Shown here piece by piece: positions 61,740-64,000 of a DNA stretch of 64,000 bases; the first letter of the stretch is position 1, and the number at the start of each line of letters is the position of its first letter. The notes beneath the pieces are model-generated. The model made no database searches, was not told the origin of the DNA, and saw only the letters and a list, made by a program, of their open reading frames with translations. The position numbers and the translations under genes were made by a program. This DNA is from a beta proteobacterium KB13 (GTDB lineage: Bacteria > Pseudomonadota > Gammaproteobacteria > Burkholderiales > Methylophilaceae). The stretch covers positions 64,390-128,389 of the forward strand of contig DS995299.1 of NCBI GenBank assembly GCA_000156155.1. The letters are read 5' to 3'.

Positions 61740-62057
61740 ATTTCTACTTTATCAAATTAAGACAATAAAAATTTTATTTAAATTAAAACATAGTTAAGAT
61801 GTTAATAAGATTATTGACTAGCCTATTTGAACCGCCGGCTAGTCAGGCGGTGTTTCAGGGAAGTAAGCGGTTATCATATTAAACACCAGATAACCATGGT
61901 GCTGGAGGTAATGAAGAGAGAATTAAGCCTCCTTAATTGATAGATGAGTGAGTTTAAAAAAGTCAGGAAAAAAATTTCATTCATTAATTGAATAAAAAAT
62001 CCTGACCTATTGAGTATTGCTGCATCACATTTATATAAGAGTAAAACCGGAGGAAGA
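61740..62057. other. Gene-free region with interleaved inverted repeats (possible structured RNA)
   Basis: No convincing gene of normal length. 61740-61815 is AT-rich. From 61816 to 61938 there is a dense chain of exact complementary blocks: gactagcc 61816-61823 with ggctagtc 61837-61844; accgcc 61831-61836 with ggcggt 61846-61851; ggtgttt 61849-61855 with aaacacc 61881-61887; ggttatc 61869-61875 with gataacc 61889-61895; aattaag 61921-61927 with cttaatt 61932-61938. Neighbouring helices interleave and exclude one another. The rest, to 62057, holds an inverted repeat (61962-61968 with 62000-62006) and an ECF-type promoter candidate. GC content in the core is clearly above the surroundings. 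Confidence 0.5.
61998..62026 (+). promoter_or_regulatory. Candidate ECF promoter of the sigma gene
   Basis: aatcctgacct (from 61998) and attgctgcatc (ending 62026) match, apart from a one-base spacer change and one substitution, a block upstream of the Sel1 gene at 63378. The ATG lies 31 bases downstream. The -35-like tcctgac is also the right arm of an inverted repeat. A shared motif before a sigma gene and a nearby secreted-protein gene suggests autoregulation; the motif is inferred from two copies only. Confidence 0.42.
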
Positions 62058-62636
62058 ATGCTTGCAGGGGAAGTGCTAGAGCAATTGAAAGACAAAGCAA
62101 AGCTAAATGTTGCCTATAAGGCTCTAAATAACTTTTTTTATAAAAAAGCCTTCAGGTTTTTATTGAGTAATAAATTAAATGATGAGGATGCCGATGATGT
62201 GATTCAAGAGACTTTTATTAAGGTATTTGAAAAGATCGACACCCTTAAAGAGGACGGTAAATTTGAATCATGGTTGTGGCAGATTCTAAGAAATAATATG
62301 AATGAGTTTTATCGTAAATCAAATAGAAAAAATGATGTCATGTTTAGTGTTGCATCAGAAGACCTTGAAAATCTTAAGGGCGATGAAGATGTGAAGGTCA
62401 GTCATGATCAAAAATATGATGATCAGCAAAGTTGTATTGAGGAAAAATTTAAATTATTTAAAGAAGAGATGCCAGATCGCCACTATGCCATTAATTTACA
62501 AAAAGATGGTGTGCCTGTTAAAGATATTTCCATCAGAATAGGCCGCTCTTATGCAGCAACTAAAGAATTTTTATCTCAATCAAAAAAGAAATTGATTCCA
62601 TACTTTGAAGAATGTAAAGAAATTGAAACATCATGA
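62058..62636 (+). CDS. ECF-like sigma-70 family sigma factor
   Basis: 192 aa from the ATG at 62058, which has a GGAGG ribosome-binding site 4 bases away; an upstream in-frame TTG at 62010 would start inside the candidate promoter. Region 2 reads LSNKLNDEDADDVIQETFIKVFEKI followed by KFESWLWQILRNNMNEFYRKSNRK (each in parts). Region 4 reads MPDRHYAINLQKDGVPVKDISIRIGRSYAATKEFLSQSKKKL (in parts), a helix-turn-helix. There is no region 3, so it belongs to group 4. Its stop overlaps the ATG of the next gene by 4 bases. The stimulus is unknown. Confidence 0.85.
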   Translation: MLAGEVLEQLKDKAKLNVAYKALNNFFYKKAFRFLLSNKLNDEDADDVIQETFIKVFEKIDTLKEDGKFESWLWQILRNNMNEFYRKSNRKNDVMFSVASEDLENLKGDEDVKVSHDQKYDDQQSCIEEKFKLFKEEMPDRHYAINLQKDGVPVKDISIRIGRSYAATKEFLSQSKKKLIPYFEECKEIETS

Positions 62637-63316
62637 GTGAACAACAAATACAAGATAACTTTATTAGTGTATTGCAAGGTAAAAAAGTACCAGGCATGGA
62701 TCCTAAGTGGCGTGTGATCGCTCGTATGGTTCGAAATATTATGATTAAGGAAGATAACCTTGAAGAGTATTTGATGGAGAGACGTCAACAAGCCTTTGAG
62801 AAAAGAATAGGTAAAGTTCTACAAGATCGTTATCTTATACCAAAGCAAAAAAGATCATTTGCATATAAGAATTGGATTCTTGCATTTATTCTTGGTGCCT
62901 CAGGGGTCTACGCCACCAAAGAATATGTGCATTTCACCAAACCACTTCCATTAGAACTGACACACACCCAGGAAGAATTAGAAGGACAGGATCCCAAATT
63001 GTTTTGGAAGAAATGGTTTAACAACGGCACTTTCATTATGTTTGGCCATCGTTATTTGACTAATCCTCTGCCAACAAATATTGGTGGCTGTGATCCAGAT
63101 CAAATCGATCTCGAAGGATGTTTAAAATTACTTAAAAAATATCCCAGTAACCCCAACCTTTTATTTAATATAGGCTTGATTTACCACATGGGTTTTGATG
63201 GGGAAGAAAATCATGACAAAGCAATTGAGTTCTATAAGCGCGCTGCCGCGTTGGGGAATGATTATGGTCGCCTGAATTATGAATATTTAATTAATCAAAA
63301 CAGTAAAAAGAAATAA
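62633..63316 (+). CDS. Single-pass membrane protein with Sel1-like repeat; putative anti-sigma partner
   Basis: 227 aa, function unknown. Residues 1-75 are charged and probably cytoplasmic; NWILAFILGASGVYATKEYV at about 80-99 is a likely membrane helix with a basic KQKR on its N-side, giving an N-in topology. The rest is probably periplasmic, with FWKKWFNNGTF at 124-134 and Sel1-type text (NIGLIYHMGFDG, HDKAIEFYKRAAALGN). Coupled by ATGA to the sigma gene, with a soluble end and a membrane helix: the layout of an anti-sigma factor. No zinc-binding anti-sigma motif is visible, so this is inference. Confidence 0.72.
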   Translation: MSEQQIQDNFISVLQGKKVPGMDPKWRVIARMVRNIMIKEDNLEEYLMERRQQAFEKRIGKVLQDRYLIPKQKRSFAYKNWILAFILGASGVYATKEYVHFTKPLPLELTHTQEELEGQDPKLFWKKWFNNGTFIMFGHRYLTNPLPTNIGGCDPDQIDLEGCLKLLKKYPSNPNLLFNIGLIYHMGFDGEENHDKAIEFYKRAAALGNDYGRLNYEYLINQNSKKK

Positions 63317-63355
63317 TTCCTGACCTTTAATCATTGCTACATCTATCTAATGTAG
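63316..63355 (+). promoter_or_regulatory. Candidate ECF promoter and overlapping inverted repeat before the Sel1 gene
   Basis: attcctgacct from 63316 and attgctacatc ending 63343 resemble the block upstream of the sigma gene. The inverted repeat ctacat-ctatcta-atgtag (63337-63355) overlaps its -10-like end. A start near 63350 would give a leader of about 28 bases to the ATG at 63378. Confidence 0.4.
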
Positions 63356-63377
63356 TTAATCAATTAAGGGTTAAAAA

Positions 63378-64000
63378 ATGAAAATTAAAACAATTGCTGC
63401 AGTGCTTGCTAATGTATTCTTGATCTCGAATGCTGTTACAGCGAATGAGATTCAAGCACCAGAAGTTAAAGTCCAAGAAAAGAATCCGTGTAAAGAAAAA
63501 ACCTTTTGGCAAACTAATTTTACCAATGGGCAATTTAATGGCTTCTATTCACAAATGACCAATAGCGTCATTAGCAATGCTCAACATTTATTTGCCAATC
63601 ATTATTTTGAAGGATCAATTTTAAACAAAGATTTAGCTAGAGCGTTAGACCTTTATCAGCGAGCACACAATCGTGGCAATCAAGATTCGACAGCAAAATT
63701 AGGGTTAGTGTATCGCTATGGCTTGTCAACTATTAAAGATTATCAAAAAGCAATTGAGTATTATCAGTCCATCGCAGCCAATTATCCAGAGGCTCAATTC
63801 AACCTTGGTTTGATGCACCGCTATGGCATTGGAACAGCATCCAACCAACAGCAAGCATTTCAATACTTCAAACAAGCTGCATCCAATCAAGTTGTTGCAA
63901 AAAACAATTGTGAAGTAGAAGTGGAAGGCATGGCGGAAGCTCAATTTCAGTTGGGACAGATGTTTCGTTATGGTTTAGGTGTTGAGAAAAATTTAGATCA
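63378..64000 (+). CDS. Secreted Sel1-repeat protein (C-terminus cut by window end)
   Basis: 207 residues are visible and the frame is still open at the window end. An N-terminal signal peptide MKIKTIAAVLANVFLISNAVTA-like segment would be cleaved near residue 22. After FWQTNFTNGQF (about 43-53) come Sel1/TPR-like repeats: LARALDLYQRAHNRGNQDSTAKLGLVYRYGL, YQKAIEYYQSIAANYPEAQFNLGLMHRYGIG and AEAQFQLGQMFRYGLGVEKNLD (each in parts). The FWxxxFxNGxF motif is shared with the membrane protein next door. Sel1 proteins act as adaptors; its target is unknown. The gap 63317-63377 holds the candidate ECF promoter. Confidence 0.82.
   Translation, partial: MKIKTIAAVLANVFLISNAVTANEIQAPEVKVQEKNPCKEKTFWQTNFTNGQFNGFYSQMTNSVISNAQHLFANHYFEGSILNKDLARALDLYQRAHNRGNQDSTAKLGLVYRYGLSTIKDYQKAIEYYQSIAANYPEAQFNLGLMHRYGIGTASNQQQAFQYFKQAASNQVVAKNNCEVEVEGMAEAQFQLGQMFRYGLGVEKNLD

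Follow-up and report, generated by a model that had tools for sequence, protein, structure and literature searches.

In the RpoE-RseA-RseB system, an ECF sigma factor is accompanied by a single-pass anti-sigma factor and a periplasmic partner protein. RsiV, the anti-sigma factor of sigma-V in Bacillus, is also a single-pass protein with a sensor ectodomain, and just outside its membrane helix it has a conserved AXA, at which signal peptidase cleaves first once ligand has bound (PMC4183432). RsiP is reported to be cleaved likewise (PMC8844934). A periplasmic Sel1-repeat protein is paired with a membrane sensor in the ExoR-ExoS-ChvI system. In the protease cassette of type III-E CRISPR loci, a sigma factor, CASP-sigma, occurs with the TPR-CHAT protein Csx29 and the inhibitor Csx30 (PMC10028731).

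The gene trio described here has the same three kinds of component as RpoE-RseA-RseB, but its promoter differs and its periplasmic partner has a domain in common with the sensor. The genome also has a separate canonical rpoE-rseA-rseB-rseC-degQ-like cluster (G000:871390), and identity of the trio's sigma factor with canonical RpoE was therefore rejected. ExoR-ExoS-ChvI is unlike the trio in being built on a two-component kinase, with an ExoS sensor that has no Sel1 domain, where the trio appears to be a sigma/anti-sigma system. RsiV resembles the trio's membrane protein in layout, but its ectodomain is DUF4163/DUF3298 and that of the trio Sel1-type. The only literature match to Sel1, ECF and anti-sigma together was a paper on Azospirillum RpoE6, which was rejected as a related system, a Sel1 protein being one among the upregulated proteins. 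The main-text passages located in a published OM43 transcriptomics study (PMC5120137) contain no discussion of the trio genes.

The locus

The window (the whole stretch of DNA that was analysed, 64,000 nucleotides) is part of a complete genome of 1.33 Mb. In a public collection, Methylophilaceae bacterium LSUCC0717 is the nearest named relative, followed at a greater distance by Methylophilales bacterium HTCC2181, a member of the OM43 clade of small-genome coastal methylotrophs; the source is therefore an OM43-type streamlined methylotroph.

Three genuine ORFs encode a sigma factor, a membrane protein and a secreted Sel1 protein (Table 1). The original prediction of a three-gene set with a group 4 sigma factor, coupled to its neighbor by an ATGA, was borne out on both points: the sigma factor matches Pfam Sigma70_r2 (PF04542, E 1e-13) and, above the cutoff, TIGR02937, and the sigma and membrane genes overlap at 62633-62636. 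The sigma factor also matches solved ECF sigma factors, is of ordinary size for an ECF factor, and has regions 2 and 4 only, with no region 3. Its two cysteines are invariant across the genus. The start of the sigma gene is ATG 62058, which follows a Shine-Dalgarno sequence, GGAGG, at 62049-62053. An alternative start, TTG 62010, was rejected, since it would lie upstream of the conserved promoter -10 element (CATC, 62023-62026). The secreted gene extends beyond the window and stops at about 64652, giving a full length of 424 aa. A few kilobases downstream of the trio there is a complete heavy-metal-type efflux set (L007 7786-13246), consisting of an outer membrane factor, a membrane fusion protein and an RND pump, all named by eye.

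Table 1. Features of the sigma/membrane/secreted protein locus, in window coordinates.
Feature	Position	Strand	Details
tRNA gene, CAT anticodon	61626..61699	+	Rfam RF00005; between rpoD and trio; boundary marker, outside the system
H-type pseudoknot, divergent strand	61816..61850	-	
Pseudoknot stem 1	61846-61850 with 61832-61836	-	CCGCC with GGCGG
Pseudoknot stem 2	61837-61844 with 61816-61823	-	GACTAGCC with GGCTAGTC
Divergent sigma-type promoter copy	61943..61967	-	CCTGAC-N15-CATC
Sigma/anti-sigma operon promoter (putative)	62001..62026	+	CCTGAC-N16-CATC
ECF (group 4) sigma factor	62058..62636	+	192 aa; invariant Cys126 and Cys186
Single-pass membrane protein	62633..63316	+	227 aa; probable anti-sigma factor
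Cytoplasmic part of membrane protein	62633..62869	+	aa 1-79; W-x3-L-x-G ... LR; hhalign to partners of related sigmas
Val92-Tyr93-Ala94	62906..62914	+	outer end of membrane helix; signal-peptidase-like
FWKKWFNNGTFIMF motif of membrane protein	63002..63043	+	aa 124-137; start of shared domain
Sel1 repeat of membrane protein	63161..63259	+	aa 177-209
Separate promoter of secreted gene (putative)	63319..63343	+	CCTGAC-N15-CATC
Secreted Sel1-repeat protein	63378..64000 (in window)	+	N-terminal signal peptide
FWQTNFTNGQFNGFY motif of secreted protein	63504..63548	+	aa 43-57; beta-hairpin in model

Conservation of the trio

Of 31 genomes of the genus, 23 encode the membrane protein, which was found in none of the other genera of the family that were sampled. 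About 20 related genomes have the three genes together, the block occupying several different chromosomal positions among them. OM43 methylotrophs are streamlined and have few regulators, yet most retain this system; it is nevertheless dispensable, since three genomes of the genus that are more than 90% complete are without it. The order sigma factor, membrane protein, secreted protein was the same at every locus read, with partial or broken copies set aside (G021 and G030 truncated, L043 frameshifted, L037 at a contig end).

The original prediction suggested looking for the trio downstream of rpoD in other Methylophilales. That position is found only in close relatives of the window, whereas the three genes stay together, and do not lie apart, in all readable relatives. 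In a second group the trio adjoins a conserved gene pair encoding proteins of 371-380 aa and 455 aa, and at a third site an additional gene for an 83-aa protein and one for a 200-aa exported protein stand in front of it. Given these different neighbors, the trio is a unit that has been kept while its surroundings changed. The membrane proteins of conserved trios diverge to 22% identity. In one subclade the exported protein, of about 200 aa and with no Pfam match, is encoded after the 83-aa gene and ahead of the sigma gene (L045 3297-3899, L040 4840-5448, L044 3726-4331).

A profile scan of 84,980 species genomes gave no full-length match to the membrane protein outside these bacteria, only matches to Sel1 repeats; conserved Sel1 peptides were required for a match, so the scan was not exhaustive.

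A domain shared by the membrane protein and the secreted protein

The membrane protein has a charged segment of 79 aa followed by one hydrophobic helix. Sel1-like repeats and an FWxxxFxNGxF motif had been claimed for both the membrane protein and the secreted protein, and both are there. The membrane protein has one Sel1 repeat (E 4e-6, by itself below Pfam's cutoff) and the secreted protein nine to ten (PF08238, E 7e-26). The motif, in the form FW..WF...G.F.GF, is kept in both proteins across the genus. It lies within a homologous domain, the periplasmic part of the membrane protein aligning by hhalign with residues 40-146 of the secreted protein (probability 98.2, E 4.8e-14), and for these two reasons we do not attribute the likeness to chance. 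The same alignment upholds the claim that the membrane partner of an ECF system has a domain in common with the exported product. Since the outer half of the partner is a relative of the secreted protein, the cell may sense with a copy of what it makes, as the alignment suggests.

In a model of the secreted protein (pLDDT 85) the Sel1 repeats build a solenoid, and the FW motif falls in a small beta-hairpin. Its best PDB match is the Sel1 protein 6ok3 (E 1.5e-19), and the other nearest solved structures, LceB (8sxq), 4bwr and LpnE (6deh), are all Sel1 proteins too.

An unnamed family of sigma factors with a cysteine pair

As had been predicted, the membrane partner has no recognisable anti-sigma zinc motif: neither it nor the wider family described here has a Pfam match to a curated anti-sigma domain, including the zinc (ZAS) type with HxxxCxxC. 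The further suggestion, that the system may be of a new type, is weakened by the cytoplasmic half of the membrane protein, which is homologous to the partners of related sigma factors elsewhere in Beta- and Gammaproteobacteria (hhalign probability 95.8, E 7e-9). Sigma factors with the same cysteine pair are sparse in the same order and class. At all seven loci of related sigma factors that were read (L206-L209, L216-L218), the next gene encodes a single-pass protein with W-x3-L, usually followed by G and LR. We therefore assign the window's pair, on the cysteine pair of the sigma factor and the homologous cytoplasmic half of its partner, to an existing, unnamed proteobacterial sigma/anti-sigma family.

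The periplasmic half of the membrane protein gave no alignment with the partners of related sigma factors outside the genus. These related pairs have another periplasmic domain in place of the FW motif and Sel1 repeat, and for this reason we regard the Sel1 ectodomain as an OM43-specific replacement. The CCTGAC-type promoter discussed below was not found in the wider family.

The neighbors of the related pairs, read by eye from the sequence, are also different from those in the window. They are not Sel1 proteins, but caspase-like proteins at L207, L209 and L216, a TPR-CHAT-like protein and a trypsin-like protease at L206, and other proteins elsewhere. The trio leads to an unnamed family of sigma/anti-sigma pairs beside caspase and CHAT proteases. 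The pairs at L206 (G151), L207 (G256), L209 (G052) and L216 (G409) recall the type III-E CRISPR cassette. The CASP-sigma model matches the window's sigma factor at E 2e-10, with other ECF models scoring better, and kinship of the cysteine-pair systems with the CASP-sigma cassette is only a lead.

Promoters and a candidate regulon

The pattern CCTGAC-N14-17-C[A/G]TC was found 5' of the sigma gene in 15 of 19 loci (shuffle expectation 0.005) and 5' of the secreted gene in 18 of 21 (shuffle expectation 0). Three of the four exceptions at the sigma gene have the motif before the 83-aa gene, which heads a longer cluster there, and in the fourth the contig ends at that point. The presence of the motif before its own gene suggests that the sigma factor is autoregulated. 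At all three sites listed in Table 1, the -10 element reads CATC within the window's subclade but CGTC in all others, as if the variant tracked the sigma factor. The claim that this ECF system is a dedicated one that includes the exported gene gains support here, as common promoters tie the secreted gene to the sigma factor.

Genome-wide, the pattern outnumbered its reversed control by 47 to 7 in five genomes and by 41 to 18 in ten. Intergenic copies precede further secreted Sel1 genes (L125, L126, L112, L113, L117, L120), genes for SIMPL proteins (L113, L118), a 44-aa lipoprotein gene (L119, L123, L124) and the gene for the 83-aa protein (L114, L115 and the cluster loci). This distribution suggests an autoregulated regulon of the sigma operon, secreted Sel1 genes, SIMPL, the small lipoprotein and the 83-aa protein. 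In at least one case, a weakly matching Sel1 protein in a relative (G019 C7), the promoter is missing.

The trio's two are the only Sel1 genes found in the window's genome. Downstream of that genome's lipoprotein gene (405.7 kb) there is a 38-aa Sel1 signal-peptide remnant, the Sel1 gene being intact in G001. The arrangement at this locus (L119, G000 403500-408000, minus strand) and at L124, with a promoter, a pseudoknot leader, the 44-aa lipoprotein gene and a Sel1 gene cut down to its signal peptide, looks like a decayed member of the regulon, of which L126 in G001 is the intact copy.

Proposed mechanism and alternatives

The membrane protein is most likely an anti-sigma factor, judging from its position and the homology of its cytoplasmic half. 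In G018 the sigma factor and membrane protein could be modeled as a fusion, in frame through the stop codon (pTM 0.49). The sigma part of this model was closer to anti-sigma-bound sigma factors (SigW/RsiW, TMt 0.70; CnrH/CnrY, 0.66; also 5uxx) than to RNAP-bound ones (TMt about 0.35). This likeness is weak evidence for the anti-sigma role, and such a fold of the sigma factor may arise without a partner.

We think it somewhat probable that the trio works as a sigma/anti-sigma switch of the ECF class that regulates its own expression and is devoted to secreted Sel1 proteins, with a sensor paralogous to the product, proteolytic release and feedback. The genes, their conservation as a block, the promoters, the common domain, the homologous cytoplasmic half and the Ala94 site can be read from the sequence; sigma binding, proteolysis, the ligand and feedback are the steps that we infer. 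The cytoplasmic half of the membrane protein would hold the sigma factor, and the periplasmic half, a shortened version of the first part of the secreted protein, would act as the sensor. When the sensor met a ligand or an envelope signal, a first cut, probably made by signal peptidase at [VAST]-[YW]-A, would fall at the outer end of the helix, and a second cut inside the membrane would free the sigma factor. The freed factor would then drive transcription of its operon, of the secreted Sel1 gene and of a small regulon. The secreted protein would compete with the sensor for the ligand, or bind the sensor, and so damp the response; we propose damping because sensor and product are homologous, a sign that they may recognise a common target.

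Each of the 21 membrane proteins carries [VAST]-[YW]-A where its helix reaches the outer face of the membrane, with the position of Ala94 invariant. Initiation of release by signal peptidase at this site is suggested by analogy with RsiV, and V-Y-A may be just a membrane-interface pattern. We put forward only tentatively the fuller version of the switch, in which sensor and secreted Sel1 protein bind the same ligand, the product titrates the signal, signal peptidase starts release and a pseudoknot RNA confined to the regulon adds post-transcriptional control.

The domain common to the sensor and the secreted protein could also mean that the latter reports back, holding the sensor inactive until stress leads to its own proteolysis or export. 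ExoR provides a precedent: this periplasmic Sel1 protein keeps a membrane sensor repressed and loses its activity through proteolysis (PMC4550343), but its target is a histidine kinase and not an anti-sigma factor. Since the secreted gene has a promoter of its own and is probably under the control of the sigma factor, a damping loop fits better than a pre-formed lock, and we consider this arrangement unlikely.

Another explanation is that the ectodomain was captured by fusion from a Sel1 gene of the regulon and senses something unrelated, the secreted protein being output only. The lineage-specific replacement described above would agree with such a capture. The motif and the gene pair have, however, been kept together through deep divergence, which suggests a continuing functional linkage and makes this explanation quite doubtful. 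That the membrane protein is a co-expressed envelope protein, with the sigma factor controlled otherwise (for example through its invariant cysteine pair), would account for the lack of a recognisable Pfam anti-sigma domain, but is very improbable given the overlapping genes, their linkage at all readable loci and the homology of the cytoplasmic half with the adjacent partners of related sigma factors.

A predicted pseudoknot RNA at regulon loci

A predicted H-type pseudoknot of the form CGC ... GGCY ... GCG ... RGCC-ACC occurs in the divergent transcript and also in the leaders of several genes of the regulon. In 18 hand-aligned examples, 107 of 107 pairs of stem 2 are standard, and five of its six positions vary with pairing kept; the same topology is found in relatives. 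The stems were picked by eye, which favors pairing, and the compensatory changes are thus the stronger point. A scan of 20 genomes gave ten matches to the pattern, all at regulon loci, and none to its reverse; the pattern misses the form found in the window's subclade. No Rfam match was found for the pseudoknot. Minimum-energy folding of the window's divergent RNA was weakly better than that of shuffles (z -1.3), and the case for an RNA is therefore one of compensatory changes and location, not of energy. The L036 copy has a run of T at its end, and a role as small RNA or attenuator is therefore possible for some copies.

Members of a family of proteins of 83-95 aa, with no Pfam match and the same promoter (L115, L114, L086, L095, L110), often have the pseudoknot RNA just before or after their genes and are a possible partner of the RNA. 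The divergent transcript in the window encodes no obvious protein, and in G006 and G012 it is followed by a short signal-peptide-like remnant. A gene for a 118-aa protein (L007 4084-4440 and L034 2161-2517, both on the minus strand) is 3' of the secreted gene in the window's relatives. In G006 and G012 it follows the divergent promoter and RNA on the 5' side of the sigma gene, which points to a local rearrangement.
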